DNA from: Thermotoga caldifontis AZM44c09
GTDB lineage: Bacteria; Thermotogota; Thermotogae; Thermotogales; DSM-5069
Direction of reading: 5' to 3'
Assembly (NCBI RefSeq): GCF_000828655.1
Contig: NZ_AP014509.1
Coordinates: forward strand, 1,240,001 to 1,304,000
Length of the DNA: 64,000 nt
Notes under the pieces: generated by a model
What the model was told of the DNA's origin: nothing
Seen by the model: only the letters and a program-made list of their open reading frames with translations
Database searches by the model: none
Shown: positions 17,946-26,726 of the stretch, one piece after another
How the letters are laid out: every line of letters starts with the position of its first letter
How positions within the stretch are numbered: the stretch's first letter is position 1
Made by a program: the position numbers and the translations under genes

Positions 17946-19103
17946 GTGAGCTGGAAGGTGGTCCTGGCGGGCGTCTGCGTCTCGCTCATCTTCGGATTTT
18001 CCTTTCTCTTCACAAAGAACGCGCTCGATTACGTGAAACCCCTGACCTTCCTTTCTTACCGTTTCTTCGTCGCGAGCCTCTTTTTTCTTTTTCTTCTGCT
18101 TTCCAGAGCGATAAGGCTTGGGAAAAAGCCATACTGGAAACTGTGGAAATTGATCGTCTTCCAGCCCATCCTGTATTTCCTTTTCGAAACGATAGGCCTT
18201 CAAAGGATCAACGCGTCCGAGGCGGGTATGATCGTTGCCCTGATACCGATTCTTGTGAACGTGCTTGCCATCTTTCTGCTGAAAGAAAAAGGTGATCGGT
18301 ACCACTACGTGTTGCTACTGAGCAGTTTTATAGGAAGCGTGTTGATAGTGGGTTTCAATCTCACGAAAGAAGCTCTCCTTGGCAAGGTCTCGATGTTGAT
18401 TGCGATGGTTTCCGCAGCCCTTTACACGATCCTCGCGAGGAAACTGTCGAGAGAGTTCGAACCGCACGAGATCAGTTTTTCGATGATGATCTCAGGATTT
18501 GTCTTCTTCACCATTGTGAGCAAACTGAGCGGTGAGTTCAGACTCGTTCTCAACGTTCACACCATCTCGGCGGCGCTGTATCTCGGCGTACTCTCTTCCG
18601 CCGTGGCGTTTTTTCTGCACACCTACATGGTGAAACAGGCACCATCGATCCTTGTGAGCCTTTTTTCGAACCTGACGACGGTCGTCGCCTGTCTGGCGGG
18701 TGTGCTGTTTCGGAACGAAAGACTAGGCCTGCAGCAAATCCTCGGTGTAGTGATAGTTCTGGTCTCTCTGCTCGTGATGGCTTACAGAAACCGTGAAAAG
18801 AAAGTCGATGCTATGCAGGAAGATGCTGAAAAAACTTTGGAAGAAGATATCAACAGTGCTATTCACGTTGCGTTGCTGAGAAAAGATCTGTTGCTCACCC
18901 CGCACGCGTACGAAAGGATGATCGAACGAAACGTGAGCTTTGAAGAGTTGAAAGAACTGCTCGAATCGAAGAGTTCGCGTGCGTTCATGCAGAAGAACGG
19001 AAGGATCAAAATAAGCAATGGATCGATCGAAGCCGTGCTTCAACCTTCAGGGAAGGTACTGTATCTTGTGACTGTGATGAGAAAAAGACGAGAATGGCTC
19101 TGA
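17946..19103 (+). CDS. DMT/EamA permease fused to a DUF4258-like domain
   Basis: Residues 1 to about 285 form a ten-helix drug/metabolite transporter with two EamA repeats. After a charged linker (REKKVDAMQEDAEKTLEEDI) the last 75 residues read L-T-P-H-A-Y-E-R-M-I-E-R-N-V-S-F-E-E-L and end VLYLVTVMRKR, which fits the DUF4258 pattern of a His-Ala-x-x-R-M-x-x-R start and a beta-rich end. The permease probably exports a small metabolite; the role of the cytosolic domain is unknown. The GTG start has GGGAGTG upstream. There is no stop or frameshift at the junction, so it is a true single frame here. Confidence 0.82.
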   Translation: MSWKVVLAGVCVSLIFGFSFLFTKNALDYVKPLTFLSYRFFVASLFFLFLLLSRAIRLGKKPYWKLWKLIVFQPILYFLFETIGLQRINASEAGMIVALIPILVNVLAIFLLKEKGDRYHYVLLLSSFIGSVLIVGFNLTKEALLGKVSMLIAMVSAALYTILARKLSREFEPHEISFSMMISGFVFFTIVSKLSGEFRLVLNVHTISAALYLGVLSSAVAFFLHTYMVKQAPSILVSLFSNLTTVVACLAGVLFRNERLGLQQILGVVIVLVSLLVMAYRNREKKVDAMQEDAEKTLEEDINSAIHVALLRKDLLLTPHAYERMIERNVSFEELKELLESKSSRAFMQKNGRIKISNGSIEAVLQPSGKVLYLVTVMRKRREWL

Positions 19104-19584: not shown

Positions 19585-21120
19585 TCATTCGAACCAGGCG
19601 TACTTGAGGATGACGAACTCTGTTGGCAGGAGCCAGACGTTTTTCAGTTCTTTCCTGTGGGCAACGATGTTCGTCATGTTGTAGAGGAAGATCCACGGTG
19701 CATCCTGTACGATCATTTTCTGCACTTCCGCGTAGTACTGCAGGAGCTTCTCTTTGTTCTGTTCTTGGGCGATCCTGTCTATGAGTTCATCGACCTTCGG
19801 ATTACTGTAGAAGGTGTTGTTATCGCCCGTACCGTTAGGATTGATGTTGTCCGAATGGAACAGCGGGTACAGGACCCAGTGCCCTTCACCCGTTGAAGGC
19901 GCCCAACCAAGTAGGAACAGTTCGTAATCCCAGTCCGCTGGGTTGCTTGAGAACAGCTTGTTTATGTAGCTTGCCCACTCCATCGGTTTCACATCGACCG
20001 TTACGCCGACCTCTTTCAGCATACCCTGAACTGCCACGGCGACTTCGTAATCGTTCAGATACCTTCCTTTGGGCGTCAACAGTTCCAGCTTGAGGTTCTC
20101 GTAACCCGCTTCTTTCAGTAACTGTTTCGCCTTCGCCGGGTCGTACGGATAACCTCCCGTCGAATAGTAACCAAAAGTATATTTTGCGAGCGGTGAATCG
20201 GAAGGAATCGCGAGGTTTCTCATGATTGTGGCGCAGAGCTTTTGCTTATCGATCGCGTAGTTGAGCGCCTGTCTGACCCTGACATCGTTCAAAGGTGGTT
20301 TTCTCAGATTGAAACCTATGTAGATCACCCTCAAACTCGGTTCAACCCTCACAACAAGCCTTTCATCCTTCTGCAGCACCGGAACGAGTGCTGGTGGGGG
20401 GTTGAACATGACGTCCGCATCACCGGCCCTCAGCTGCGTGACCCTCGTTACGTCTTCCGGAACGATCGTGAACACGATGCCATCGAGATACGGCTGGCCT
20501 TCCCTCCAGTAGTTCGGGTTCTTGACGAGTTCTATCCTCTCTCCGATCTTCCATTCCTTGAGCATGAACGGGCCGGTTCCGACCGGGTTCCTGCCGAGTT
20601 TCGCAGGATCGCTACCGTAAGCGTCGATGGCCTTCGGAGAGACTATCAGGGCTGCTTCGTGTGCGAGCCTGTTCAGGAAGGGCGAATAAGGTTTCTCGAG
20701 GATGAATTTGACAGTGTAATCATCGACAACGACGATTTCCTTGACGATGCCTTTGAACAGGCCAGTCCTTCTGAGGGAATTGTTCAGCACGTAATCGTAA
20801 TACTTCTTCACTGCCTGCGCGTTGAAATCAGCTCCGTCGTGGAACTTGACACCTTTCCGCAGATAGAACGTGTACTCTAAGCCATCTTCCGAAATCTCCC
20901 ATTTCTCAGCCAGGGCGGGGGTGATGTTCAGCTTCTCATCGAATTCCACAAGACCATCGAAGATGTGGCGGCACACGGTTCCGCTGATGTTGTCTGTCTG
21001 GTTGGCCGGAAGCAACGATACTGCATCGGCTCCCATGACGTAGCGAGCTATTCCACCGTACTTTGCACAGAACGACAGTGCAGAGACCAGAAGAACGAGA
21101 ACGAGCAGAAGTTTCTTCAC
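19585..21120 (-). CDS. ABC transporter solute-binding protein, family 5 (peptide/oligosaccharide)
   Basis: The 511-residue protein has a signal peptide (VKKLLLVLVLLVSALSFCA) and the SBP_bac_5 features: a TFYLRKGVKFHDG motif near residue 90 and the GTGPFMLKEWKIGERIELVKNPNYW segment (given here only as the family landmark around 155-180). Such proteins bind peptides, nickel or, in Thermotogales, often oligosaccharides. The GTG at 21120 is preferred because GGGAGG lies 8 bases before it; the ATG three codons earlier is too close. No permease or ATPase gene is adjacent, so it is an orphan and must use a transporter encoded elsewhere. A strong terminator follows. Confidence 0.9.
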   Translation of the reverse strand: MKKLLLVLVLLVSALSFCAKYGGIARYVMGADAVSLLPANQTDNISGTVCRHIFDGLVEFDEKLNITPALAEKWEISEDGLEYTFYLRKGVKFHDGADFNAQAVKKYYDYVLNNSLRRTGLFKGIVKEIVVVDDYTVKFILEKPYSPFLNRLAHEAALIVSPKAIDAYGSDPAKLGRNPVGTGPFMLKEWKIGERIELVKNPNYWREGQPYLDGIVFTIVPEDVTRVTQLRAGDADVMFNPPPALVPVLQKDERLVVRVEPSLRVIYIGFNLRKPPLNDVRVRQALNYAIDKQKLCATIMRNLAIPSDSPLAKYTFGYYSTGGYPYDPAKAKQLLKEAGYENLKLELLTPKGRYLNDYEVAVAVQGMLKEVGVTVDVKPMEWASYINKLFSSNPADWDYELFLLGWAPSTGEGHWVLYPLFHSDNINPNGTGDNNTFYSNPKVDELIDRIAQEQNKEKLLQYYAEVQKMIVQDAPWIFLYNMTNIVAHRKELKNVWLLPTEFVILKYAWFE

Positions 21121-21226
21121 GATATGCACCTCCCACGCGAGTTTGGCATTATTTTACCACCACAGCCTCATCTGAGCAGGTTTCATGTTGTTAATCTGTC
21201 TAAGGCTGACTTTGAACTTTGCCGTT

Positions 21227-22980: not shown

Positions 22981-23009
22981 TTGACGCGGGTGGTTTTTGG
23001 TGTTAAGAT
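22981..23009 (+). promoter_or_regulatory. Promoter of the opine-dehydrogenase/B12/ATP-grasp operon
   Basis: TTGACG (22981-22986) and TAAGAT (23004-23009) are separated by exactly 17 bases and lie 30 bases before the first start codon. The -35 matches the consensus at five of six positions. Confidence 0.65.
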
Positions 23010-23039
23010 TGTAATGAATTTGACACGGAGGTGACGTGC

Positions 23040-24122
23040 ATGAAGATCTGTGTGATCGGCGCAGGTAATGGCGGACAAGCACTCGCAGGTTACCTTGCAT
23101 TAAAAGGCTTCGATGTTTCCCTGTTCAACAGGTCTGAGAGAAGGATCTTACCCATCATGAAAACGAGGAAGATCAAGCTCGAAGGGGAGGTCAATGCCAC
23201 AGCTCAGGTTTCTTTCGCCACTACAAACCTCGCGGAAGCGGTCAAAGGAAGAAAGCTTCTCATGGTTGTTGTTCCGGCCAACGCGCACAGAGAAATAGCC
23301 GAGAAGCTGGCTCCGTTGCTTGAGGATGGACAGATCGTCGTGTTGAATCCCGGCAGGACTGCGGGAGCCCTGGAGTTCGTCAACGTTCTTAAAGAGAAAG
23401 GTGTGAAAAAAGACGTGGTGGTCGCGGAGGCTCAGACGTTCGTCTTCGCTTCACGCATGTCCAACCCCGGAGTGGTGCGCATCTTCAGGATCAAAAACGC
23501 CGTACCCGTGGCAGCTTTGCCCGCGTCGAGAAATAAGGATCTTGAGGAGACACTTCTGAAAGTGATGCCAGAATTCGAGATCGCCCCGAGTACGCTCCAC
23601 ACGAGTTTCAACAACATTGGAGCCGTTTTTCATCCGGCAACGATCATCTTGAACGCGGGCTGGGTAGAAACCACGTTTGGAAAGTTCGAATTCTACTTCG
23701 AAGGCATAAGTCCGTCGGTGGCGAAAGTTCTTGAAACCATCGATGAAGAGAGGTGTACGGTCGCGAGAAGATTTGGGATCGAACCGATGACGGCAGTACA
23801 ATGGCTCTCTTACGCGTACGATGTGAAAGGTAGAGATCTTTACGAAGCCATTCACAACAACGAAGGTTACAGGGGCATTCAGGCACCCACAAGCTTGGAA
23901 AACAGGTACATCCTGGAGGACGTTCCGACCAGTCTCGTTCCGATCTCGGCCTTCGGCAGGTTGGTCAACGTTGAAACGCCCACGATAGATTCCATCGTGA
24001 GACTGGCATCCATCATGATGGGTATCGACTTCTTCAAAGAGGGTAGAAACTTCGAAAGACTTCACCTTGATGGCAAGAGCGTTGACGAAGTTAAACGTGT
24101 CATGGAGGAGGGATGGCAATGA
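23040..24122 (+). CDS. Octopine/nopaline dehydrogenase-family NAD(P) enzyme
   Basis: The 360-residue protein has an N-terminal Rossmann domain with C-V-I-G-A-G-N-G-G-Q-A at residues about 4-14 and a helical C-terminal domain with the family residues H-P-A-T-I-I-L-N-A-G and L-S-Y-A-Y. Opine dehydrogenases reductively condense an amino acid with a keto acid, or run the reverse reaction; bacterial homologues also act on other substrates, including metallophore precursors. The ATG at 23040 follows GGAGGTG. Its stop overlaps the start of the B12 protein (ATGA), so the two products probably act in one pathway. The substrate is unknown. Confidence 0.88.
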   Translation: MKICVIGAGNGGQALAGYLALKGFDVSLFNRSERRILPIMKTRKIKLEGEVNATAQVSFATTNLAEAVKGRKLLMVVVPANAHREIAEKLAPLLEDGQIVVLNPGRTAGALEFVNVLKEKGVKKDVVVAEAQTFVFASRMSNPGVVRIFRIKNAVPVAALPASRNKDLEETLLKVMPEFEIAPSTLHTSFNNIGAVFHPATIILNAGWVETTFGKFEFYFEGISPSVAKVLETIDEERCTVARRFGIEPMTAVQWLSYAYDVKGRDLYEAIHNNEGYRGIQAPTSLENRYILEDVPTSLVPISAFGRLVNVETPTIDSIVRLASIMMGIDFFKEGRNFERLHLDGKSVDEVKRVMEEGWQ

Positions 24123-25774
24123 AAATGATCGGTGCTTCAATTGGTAGTTGCGTTCACAACGTCGGTTTGCTCAACTTTCTCAATCTGGCGAAGCAGAACG
24201 GTTATGAAACATTGTACTTAGGTTCTGCCATCCCGGTGGAGAAGCTCGTGGAAGAGATCGAAAAACACCAACCGGACGTGGTGGCGATGAGTTACAGGTT
24301 GGGTGCGGAGGCACTGCGGAATCTGCTCGAAACGCTGGAAGACTCGTTAAAAGTGCGAGGCCTGCTGGATAAAACTTACATATTCGGTGGAACGGTGGAA
24401 ACAGCTGAAGTGGCAAGAAAATTCAGTTTCATAAAGAAAGCTTTCGACGGGAGTGAGGAACTGGACGAAATTGTTATGTTCTTGAGGGGTGAAGCGAGAA
24501 AGCTGCAGAAGCAGGAAGTGTTCCCACAGAGACTGGGTGAGAGGATCAAGTTCAAAAGTCCTTTTCCCCTGATACGGCATCACATTGGTTTGCAAACGCT
24601 CGAAGGGACCATCGAGGAGATAAAGAAAATGGCAGAATCGCAGCTCCTCGATGTGATATCGATCGCACCGGATCAGAACTGTCAGCAATTCTTTTTTGAA
24701 CCAGAGAAGATGGATCCAAAGCAAGATGGCGCCGGAGGGGCGCCAATAAGAACGAGGGAAGATTTTGTGAGACTGTACGAGGCCAGCAGGAGGGGAAACT
24801 ATCCGCTTGTCAGGTGCTACGCAGGCACAACGCACATGGTCGAGTTCTCGAAACTCTTGAAAGAAACCATCAACAACTCGTGGGCTGCAATACCGATCAT
24901 GTGGTACAGCGATCTCGACAGGCGCTCGAACAGGCCACTGTTAGAAGCCATAAAAGAGAACATGGAGGCGATTCGTTGGAACGCTGAAAACGATGTCCCT
25001 GTCGAAGTCACGGATTCCCATCAGTGGGCTCTGAGGCTGGCGCACGACGCAGTCGAGGTTGCCACAGCGTATCTTGCCACATTCGTTGCAAAACGGCTTG
25101 GGGTGAGAGAGTACGTGCAACAGTTCATGCTGGAGACACCTTCTGGGATTTCACCGAGGGCCGATCTGGCGAAGATGATCGCGAAGAGAGAACTGGTAGA
25201 AAGTCTTGCCGACGACAACTTCAAAGTTTACCGGATGATAAGAACGGGACTGATGTCGATGCCCGCAGATCACAACGCGGCGATGGGGCAAATCGGTATA
25301 TCCATGTTCTACGGCATGGCGCTCGAACCGCACATCGTTCACGTGGTAGCGTACTGCGAATCCACGAAGAGGGCCACAGCGAAGGAGATCATAGAGAGCG
25401 CGAGGATAGCAAGGAGGGCCATAAACGTGGCGCTAAGAGGATGCGTTGATCCTCTGGCAGATCCGTGGGTGAGGGGTGAGAAGGAAAGAATCGAAGAGGA
25501 GGCATTGCAGATAATCGAAGCGATCAAATCCCTCGGTAATGGTGAGGATGAAGATCTGCTCAGGCCAGAAATTCTCTTCGAGGCGGTTAGAACTGGAATC
25601 TTGGACGCTCCAGCTCTGAAAGGTTTCTCAGTGGCTAAGGGCGGTGTGAAGACAGCTCTGATCGATGGACAGTGCAGGTGTGTCGACGAAAAAGGAAACT
25701 TGGTCAGCGAAAGAGACAGGCTGAAAAAGTTGCTCGAGGAGGTTTGCGAAGATGAGAGTGGCTGTCGTTTATGA
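24119..25774 (+). CDS. B12-binding, glutamate-mutase-like radical isomerase
   Basis: The 551-residue protein joins two parts. Residues 1-130 look like a cobalamin-binding Rossmann domain: after the first strand comes C11-V-H13-N-V-G16, the position of the D-x-H-x-x-G motif whose His ligates cobalt, here with Cys in place of Asp. Residues about 140-540 look like the TIM-barrel (epsilon) subunit of glutamate mutase; the C-terminal stretch around A-V-R-T-G-I-L-D-A-P and the following I-D-G-Q-C-R resembles the end of MutE. In known glutamate mutases the two parts are separate polypeptides. It would need adenosylcobalamin and rearrange an amino-acid carbon skeleton; the substrate is unknown. GGAGGAGG lies 6 bases before the ATG. 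Confidence 0.72.
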   Translation: MKMIGASIGSCVHNVGLLNFLNLAKQNGYETLYLGSAIPVEKLVEEIEKHQPDVVAMSYRLGAEALRNLLETLEDSLKVRGLLDKTYIFGGTVETAEVARKFSFIKKAFDGSEELDEIVMFLRGEARKLQKQEVFPQRLGERIKFKSPFPLIRHHIGLQTLEGTIEEIKKMAESQLLDVISIAPDQNCQQFFFEPEKMDPKQDGAGGAPIRTREDFVRLYEASRRGNYPLVRCYAGTTHMVEFSKLLKETINNSWAAIPIMWYSDLDRRSNRPLLEAIKENMEAIRWNAENDVPVEVTDSHQWALRLAHDAVEVATAYLATFVAKRLGVREYVQQFMLETPSGISPRADLAKMIAKRELVESLADDNFKVYRMIRTGLMSMPADHNAAMGQIGISMFYGMALEPHIVHVVAYCESTKRATAKEIIESARIARRAINVALRGCVDPLADPWVRGEKERIEEEALQIIEAIKSLGNGEDEDLLRPEILFEAVRTGILDAPALKGFSVAKGGVKTALIDGQCRCVDEKGNLVSERDRLKKLLEEVCEDESGCRL

Positions 25775-26666
25775 TCTCGATAACCTTGACGATGAGCGAA
25801 AAAGAATGATAGAGGCTGTGTGTGAAGCTCTGTCAAGGGTGCACGATGTTGAGAAAATCCCCTTCGCTGATGATTTTGTCGAGCGCGTCAGGTCCTTCGA
25901 AGCGGTGTTCAACCTCTCCACATCGCACCTTCAAATGCACGTTCCAGCGATACTCGATGTTTTGAAGATACCATACACCGGATCTTCTGCCCTGGTGCAC
26001 GCCCTCTGCACGGACAAGGTGATCACCAAGATCGTTCTACAACATCACGGCATACCCACACCAAAGTTTGCAATCTTTCAGCCAGGAGAGGAGCCGGCAT
26101 CGATCGATTTCTTTCCTGCCATAGTCAAACCGACCAGGCAGGGTAGCGCGAGAGGAATCGATGCAGACTCTGTCGTTACAGACGAACAGGCACTCAGAAA
26201 GGCTGTGAAACGGGTGCATGCGCTCTTCAGGGAACCAGCCCTCGTGGAAGAGTTCATAGATGGTAGGGAATTCAGCGTGGGTATTCTCGCGAATCGTGTG
26301 TTACCGATACTGGAGATCGACTTTTCAACTCTACCAGAGGGCGTTGAACGGTTCTACTCTTACAGGGTTAAGCACTTCTTCGGCGAACAGACGCGGTACG
26401 TTTGCCCTGCAGAGATGGATGAGGATCTGAAAATGAAAATCGAACGGTACGCGATGAAAGCCTTCCGTGCCCTGAACCTCAGAAACTATGCCCGCATGGA
26501 TCTGAGGGTCAGAGGAAACGAGCCTTATTTTCTCGAGGTGAATTCCCTTCCCATGTTGACGCCAAATTACTCGGACATAGTGAAGATGGCGCAGGCTGAA
26601 GGTTTGAGCTACGAAGAATTGATCCTCGAAATATTCAACGATGCCGTGAAATCAGCTGGCAAATGA
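25752..26666 (+). CDS. D-Ala-D-Ala-ligase-like ATP-grasp enzyme
   Basis: The 304-residue protein has the order of motifs of the Ddl family: an N-terminal Rossmann-like domain, V-K-P-T-R-Q-G-S-A-R-G at about 125-135, E-F-I-D-G-R-E-F-S-V, and the metal-binding end M-D-L-R-V followed by F-L-E-V-N-S-L-P. ATP-grasp ligases couple ATP to carboxylate-amine bond formation. It is shorter than typical Ddl (about 305-365) and the lid region differs, so a different amino-acid substrate is likely. The start overlaps the B12 protein by 23 bases with GAGGAGG upstream, so it is the third gene of the operon. Ddl proper would normally sit with cell-wall genes, which are absent here. Confidence 0.8.
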   Translation: MRVAVVYDLDNLDDERKRMIEAVCEALSRVHDVEKIPFADDFVERVRSFEAVFNLSTSHLQMHVPAILDVLKIPYTGSSALVHALCTDKVITKIVLQHHGIPTPKFAIFQPGEEPASIDFFPAIVKPTRQGSARGIDADSVVTDEQALRKAVKRVHALFREPALVEEFIDGREFSVGILANRVLPILEIDFSTLPEGVERFYSYRVKHFFGEQTRYVCPAEMDEDLKMKIERYAMKAFRALNLRNYARMDLRVRGNEPYFLEVNSLPMLTPNYSDIVKMAQAEGLSYEELILEIFNDAVKSAGK

Positions 26667-26708: not shown

Positions 26709-26726
26709 CACTCGCGGAGTGTTTTT
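26709..26726 (+). terminator. Weak terminator after the ATP-grasp gene
   Basis: CACTC and GAGTG pair with a 3-base loop and are followed by five T residues. The stem is short. It lies about 40 bases after the stop codon of the three-gene operon, inside a longer inverted repeat. Confidence 0.4.

Follow-up and report, generated by a model that had tools for sequence, protein, structure and literature searches.

What could an opine dehydrogenase, a vitamin B12-dependent mutase, and an ATP-grasp ligase accomplish together in a single operon? Three genes of these types, designated here odh, mut, and lig (products ODH, MUT, and LIG), lie in a 64,000-nucleotide stretch of the Thermotoga caldifontis AZM44c09 genome (NZ_AP014509.1, positions 1,240,001 to 1,304,000; 2.0 Mb in a single contig), which is referred to below as the window and from the first nucleotide of which coordinates are counted. 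We propose, with a probability of roughly 45%, that the operon encodes a three-step anabolic pathway in which ODH would form an opine, MUT would rearrange a carbon skeleton, and LIG would amidate the product. In broader terms, the operon very probably yields an unusual small molecule derived from an acidic amino acid. Adenosylcobalamin (AdoCbl)-dependent carbon-skeleton mutases are few, each having defined a pathway, and MUT represents a conserved, unassigned subfamily encoded nearly always beside ODH.

The three open reading frames (ORFs) are all on the forward strand, with odh at 23040-24122, mut at 24119-25774, and lig at 25752-26666; each has a Shine-Dalgarno sequence, and consecutive genes overlap by 4 and 23 bases, in agreement with the three-gene operon of a preliminary description of this DNA. 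For odh, the ATG at 23040 is the preferred start; the alternative GTG at 23031 falls within the Shine-Dalgarno sequence GGAGGTGA. MUT residues are numbered from the ATG at 24113, the start given in the ORF list, and the ATG at 24119 has the better-spaced GGAGG. The promoter that the same description had placed upstream of odh also exists, as a sigma-70-type promoter with an extended -10 element (22981-23009, forward strand; TTGACG-17-(TG)TAAGAT). A promoter scan by itself is not significant, with 3 promoters found against 3.3 expected by chance, but four species have kept both the -35 core and, beyond a diverged spacer, the extended -10 element (GTGTTAAGAT). Because the genes overlap and the promoter elements were conserved while the spacer drifted, we regard odh-mut-lig as a real transcription unit.

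The distribution of odh and mut across genomes ties the two genes closely together. In a comparison of 61 Thermotogota genomes, given as raw counts not corrected for kinship, their distribution is identical: both are present in 38 genomes (one of which, G006, is counted by a diverged MUT relative) and both are absent from 23. Presence varies inside at least six genera or families (g1, g6, g8, g13, g18, and f4), and one genome of the same genus as the window (G003) lacks all three genes. Because presence flips within several genera and families, the odh-mut distribution is not the effect of one clade. The Thermotogota orthologs of LIG follow odh and mut with few exceptions, usually in adjacent positions. 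In one Thermotogota family (L060-L065), lig has separated from odh-mut and constitutes a unit of its own together with an amidohydrolase gene and, in some cases, an APS-kinase-like gene.

A scan of 84,980 species genomes returned 506 MUT relatives. Among the sampled genomes, MUT is carried by 75 of 195 in an Asgard phylum, by 70 of 348 in the phylum to which a Clostridiaceae record belongs, by 15 of 396 in that of an Acidobacteriota record, and by 4 of 293 in one archaeal phylum. Gene linkage was counted in 179 nonredundant mutase loci drawn from Thermotogota, Clostridia, Acidobacteriota, archaea (Asgard and others), and further lineages, each with at least 1.2 kb on both sides; these loci were sampled by similarity to the window mutase, and the counts rest on six-frame hidden Markov model (HMM) searches and depend on the thresholds chosen, gene calling having hidden some odh genes behind antisense ORFs. 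By this measure, odh lies on the same strand within 300 bp of mut in 169 of the 179 loci and within 4 kb in 173, and is upstream of mut in 161. In some genomes of the Asgard phylum (L316, L356, and L359 among the examples), odh is downstream, not upstream, of the mutase gene. Other neighbors, such as FolP, Nudix, rnhB, and glnA (all named from sequence by eye), as well as NadE, GrpE/DnaJ, Lgt, NFACT, and V-ATPase, resemble housekeeping genes and change between lineages. The preliminary description had treated the three genes as a functional set, an idea that a lack of co-occurrence in other genomes would undermine; the genes clearly do co-occur, across both Bacteria and Archaea.

The domain names assigned to the three products in that description hold as well (PF02317 for ODH, PF02310 with a weak PF06368 match for MUT, and PF07478 for LIG). 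ODH (360 amino acids) scores 163.9 bits against PF02317 (cutoff, 30), and its closest solved structure is 1bg6 (CENDH/ArODH; E = 1e-77), with which it shares this family and the catalytic His-Asp pair. Through the alignment to 1bg6, residues R106, G194, and R31 of the window ODH correspond to ArODH positions 111, 198, and 35. Among the 193 unique ODHs of such modules, R106 is present in 193, G194 in 190, and R31 in 181, and the catalytic His-Asp dyad and the active-site Trp are found along with them (H198 and W255 in 193/193, D294 in 192/193). The meaning of these positions comes from a study of hot-spring opine dehydrogenases (mODHs) that are about 40% identical to ArODH, in which swapping of ArODH positions 111 and 198 by mutagenesis switched the specificity between L-Phe and L-Asp (Telek et al. 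2024; PMC10787698). The mODHs favor L-Asp, L-Glu, and sulfonate analogues together with pyruvate and mostly use NADPH, which is accompanied by Arg35, a residue that most of them carry (PMC10787698). ODH has the Arg111/Gly198 signature of these acidic-amino-acid opine dehydrogenases and shares Arg35 with most mODHs. From this likeness, we infer that ODH would use an acidic amino acid of the Asp or Glu type and pyruvate, with NADPH; lysine and ornithine, which the preliminary description had listed among the candidates, are less likely. The R106/G194 signature is the strongest chemical evidence for the pathway. The efficiency of the mODHs on Asp is modest (0.04 to 1.5 per s per mM; PMC10787698), a hint that the natural substrate may be a compound related to Asp. 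The accessible part of that report treats the mODHs as isolated biocatalysts and does not discuss their gene neighborhood.

MUT is predicted, from Pfam matches and fold, to be an AdoCbl-type mutase in which an N-terminal B12-binding domain (residues 4-95; 24122-24397, forward strand; PF02310, 43.4 bits) is fused to a glutamate-mutase-like catalytic barrel (about residues 136-510; 24518-25642, forward strand). The PF06368 match is weak and partial (28.0 bits; cutoff, 26.6), and a sequence search found no full-length solved relative. An AlphaFold model built from 52 sequences (mean pLDDT, 94.9) best matches the E chain of glutamate mutase (Foldseek E = 1.5e-16; Z = 33.8, 2.8 Å over 373 residues), followed, in order, by the lysine 5,6- and ornithine 4,5-aminomutase barrels and methylmalonyl-CoA mutase; the extent of the barrel is taken from structural alignment to 1cb7_B and the aminomutase barrels. 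MUT has the TIM barrel and the B12 domain with a ligand His that characterize AdoCbl-dependent carbon-skeleton mutases, and neither the ligand His15 nor Gly18 in the B12 motif varies within the MUT family.

The glutamate mutase of Clostridium cochlearium (GlmES/MutES; 1cb7) resembles MUT in the barrel fold, in the B12 domain with its invariant His, and apparently in the adenosyl-site Glu, since a profile alignment of MUT with MutE (E = 8e-4) places E416 next to Glu330, the residue of GlmE at that site. In contrast to MUT, where the B12 domain is fused N-terminally, glutamate mutase has a separate S subunit; MUT is also distinguished by its pairing with an opine dehydrogenase. Identification of MUT as glutamate mutase proper was rejected (TIGR01503, 17.6 bits; cutoff, 390.1), as was identification as an ornithine or lysine aminomutase, with which MUT shares the B12 domain and the barrel fold but for which its scores are far below the cutoffs. 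A genuine MutE coexists with MUT in six genomes (G067, G098, G142, G153, G154, and G185), the MUT of G154 being a diverged fusion. Given the fold match, an apparently changed substrate pocket (see below), and this coexistence, MUT probably works like glutamate mutase but is not one.

Further indications come from MutL/GlmL, which acts as a reactivase and is annotated in plasmid records as a glutamate mutase accessory protein; no plasmid-borne copies of the window mutase with informative annotation were found. In two Clostridia (L264:6306-10007, reverse strand; L265:1739-5383, forward strand), a MUT-like mutase carries a fused MutL domain (275.9 bits) at its C terminus, the whole protein having about 1,220 amino acids and being encoded directly behind a diverged odh. 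A third MUT-MutL fusion, a fragment, is found in a bin from an Asgard phylum (L347), and free-standing MutL genes adjoin mut in L225 and L228, so that some MUT relatives share the MutL link with glutamate mutase. The fold and these links would place MUT among the enzymes that catalyze AdoCbl-dependent 1,2-rearrangements. MutL as a general partner of MUT was rejected: it does not track MUT in Thermotogota and is absent from the whole family of the window (f1), and its association counts as occasional evidence only. In one Thermotogota genome and some Acidobacteriota, the mutase encoded beside ODH is not MUT but a member of a second, diverged family of about 620 to 670 amino acids, about 30% identical and with a DxHTLG motif (L040:8425-10329, forward strand; L341-L346); three of the Acidobacteriota copies lack a nearby ODH.

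LIG is a Ddl-related ATP-grasp protein (PF07478, 113.6 bits; cutoff, 24) and a putative amide ligase. It shares with Ddl the ATP-grasp fold, the catalytic core, and the conserved Lys, Arg, Asp, Glu, and Asn of the ATP/Mg site, where K93, K126, E173, K207, and N264 are invariant. It differs from Ddl in its N terminus, from which the first-D-Ala motifs SxExxxS and HGxxGEDG, present in the Ddl of the same genome, are absent (in DdlB, the residues that bind the first D-Ala are Glu15 and His63), and the position of Tyr216 of Ddl is occupied by His, Asn, Glu, or another residue. Identification of LIG as a D-Ala-D-Ala ligase was rejected, its best NCBIfam Ddl score being 172.1 against a cutoff of 243; the true Ddl of the genome is located at about G000:C1:681578-682459 and scores 489 bits with NF011169 (cutoff, 404). 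A second Ddl-like ATP-grasp protein is encoded in the source genome (L338:365-1276, forward strand; about G000:C1:917164-918075), 42% identical to LIG and likewise below the Ddl cutoffs. Sequence distances correlate between ODH and LIG (0.83) and between MUT and LIG (0.77).

In other lineages, the place of LIG would be taken by an asparagine-synthase-like (AsnB-like) protein, mostly one lacking the glutaminase Cys, or by another ATP-grasp enzyme. Within 4 kb of mut, a Ddl-like lig is found in 44 of the 179 loci and an AsnB-like gene in 30 (total, 74), never both, and two Hathewaya-type Clostridiaceae (L097 and L098) encode a third, different ATP-grasp protein between odh and mut. Because these enzymes replace one another, the amide-forming step is kept by different proteins, which argues for a common chemistry. 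The glutaminase Cys is missing from 19 of 23 AsnB-like proteins, a loss they share with beta-lactam synthetase, an AsnB-type enzyme; the window itself has no AsnB-like gene. The AsnB-like proteins encoded directly behind mut in Clostridial loci L201 and L233 retain this Cys, and the nitrogen donor may therefore differ between AsnB-like proteins.

In the proposed pathway, ODH would join an acidic L-amino acid of the Asp or Glu type to pyruvate and reduce the imine with NADPH, producing an N-(1-carboxyethyl) amino acid, that is, an opine. MUT, with AdoCbl, would then carry out a radical rearrangement of the carbon skeleton to a branched, 3-methylaspartate-like form, and LIG would use ATP to amidate a carboxylate, the partner being ammonia, an amine, or an amino acid. 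The presence of an ATP-using ligase and of the NADPH-type Arg favors synthesis as the direction; the exact substrate, step order, and product given here are guesses. The earlier idea that the enzymes work one after another on an unusual amino acid, with reductive coupling and ligation, holds in outline and fits the gene order, the acidic/NADPH signature of ODH, the MUT fold, and the exchange of amide-forming enzymes; the chemistry of its first step is now better defined. As to the mutase substrate, step order, product, and direction, it goes beyond what these features establish. Because of the gene order, the apparently changed substrate pocket of MUT, and the coexistence with MutE, we lean slightly toward an order in which ODH comes first and MUT acts on the opine, over one in which MUT comes first and acts on the free amino acid. 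The fuller claim, that in a widespread pathway of anaerobic bacteria and a sizable fraction of Asgard archaea a B12 mutase rearranges an opine skeleton, with a branched opine amide as the outcome, is tentative, and we consider the odds to be against it; to our knowledge, opines are not a known substrate class of any AdoCbl-dependent mutase.

Several observations weigh against the proposed pathway or parts of it. In a strand-by-strand reading of the profile alignment with GlmE (identity, <20%), H157, Q191, and Y236 of MUT fall at R66, R100, and R149, the arginines that hold glutamate, and a 3-methylaspartate-type product of MUT is a guess, as the glutamate-holding residues of GlmE appear not to be in place. 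The same reading locates the invariant R155 and R234 of MUT two residues upstream of H157 and Y236. A recognized amide-forming gene is nearby in just 47 of the 108 loci with flanks of at least 4 kb, so that the amide-forming step is less secure than the odh-mut pair. Finally, the two Clostridial operons with MUT-MutL fusions (L264 and L265) carry a Dpp-type (oligopeptide-type) ATP-binding cassette (ABC) importer and a peptidase C26 in place of the ligase, along with a GntR-like regulator (identified by eye), and in their ODHs the NADPH-type Arg31 is replaced by Pro; these operons suggest that related chemistry can serve breakdown.

The same residues and operons bear on other explanations of the locus. 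The order of the first two steps could be reversed, with MUT making a 3-methylaspartate-like acid from glutamate in its free form (or from a closely similar compound) that would next be N-carboxyethylated by ODH and amidated by LIG. The MUT barrel is nearest to that of glutamate mutase, and the mODHs accept acidic amino acids but are modest on Asp (PMC10787698), as would be expected if they had evolved for a different acidic amino acid; however, the glutamate-binding arginines are not in place in the low-identity alignment, the six genomes named above encode a genuine MutE in addition to MUT or its diverged relative, and odh precedes mut in 161 of 169 loci. We regard this order as possible but somewhat unlikely. 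That the operon is catabolic, with ODH oxidizing an imported opine or opine amide to an amino acid and a keto acid and the mutase feeding fermentation, is unlikely. The carriers belong largely to anaerobic lineages, and the importer, regulator, and peptidase of the two diverged Clostridial operons would suit such a use, but the window operon has an ATP-using ligase and neither a transporter nor an amidase gene, and the Arg31 that 181 of the 193 ODHs possess is Pro in precisely the two catabolic-looking operons. It is very unlikely that the pathway supplies a component for surface polysaccharides or lipids, attached to a sugar by the ligase: the gene set of the two Hathewaya-type Clostridiaceae lies with genes for a flippase, a Wzy-like ligase, a glycosyltransferase, and an acetyltransferase, but such genes are absent from the other loci examined, the window included. 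Membership of the three genes in separate known pathways (glutamate mutase, D-Ala-D-Ala ligase, and opine dehydrogenase), as mere neighbors, is scarcely credible, for although each has a known superfamily and the ligase is detached in some genomes, where lig could possibly act independently, the neighborhood data contradict such a separation for odh-mut (linked in 169 of the 179 loci, which span many phyla), and MUT and LIG both fall below the cutoffs of the known families. A compatible-solute role was considered and rejected, MscS or Na+/H+ antiporter neighbors being present in too few loci to carry weight.

With synthesis of a modified opine as the preferred reading, the operon can be compared with those for opine metallophores (staphylopine and pseudopaline), which are likewise small biosynthetic operons built around an opine dehydrogenase. 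The window operon differs from these in having a B12 mutase and an amide ligase and in lacking a nicotianamine-synthase-like gene, an exporter, and an importer. It is thus an opine-type biosynthetic operon in which all three enzymes belong to known superfamilies and for the combination of which no described counterpart was found. The preliminary description knew of no pathway with this set, and we, too, found no paper describing the odh-mut-ligase set or its pathway in a literature search that mostly did not cover subscription journals. If the proposed pathway is correct, it would provide a physiological setting for the thermostable acidic-amino-acid opine dehydrogenases examined as biocatalysts, predict a new class of metabolites in anaerobes and Asgard archaea, and, for genomes where the gene can be recognized just as that of a cobalamin-binding protein, add a function that depends on B12.

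Some minor features of the window remain to be described. A terminator-like hairpin followed by a T run (26709-26721, forward strand) lies downstream of lig; it is a pattern match alone, of a kind found less often than expected by chance. An Rfam search of the whole window yielded no match and hence no recognized B12 riboswitch or other structured RNA. Upstream of the operon, an ORF for an EamA-like transporter (17946-19103, forward strand) appears to end in a soluble C-terminal extension (about 75 residues; HAYERMIERNVSFEEL...), which, by eye only, resembles a separate small domain. Between this ORF and odh lies an apparently orphan gene for a solute-binding protein (19585-21129, reverse strand), divergent from the operon. 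A relative of this protein is encoded just downstream of the ligase gene in L034, beside another solute-binding protein.

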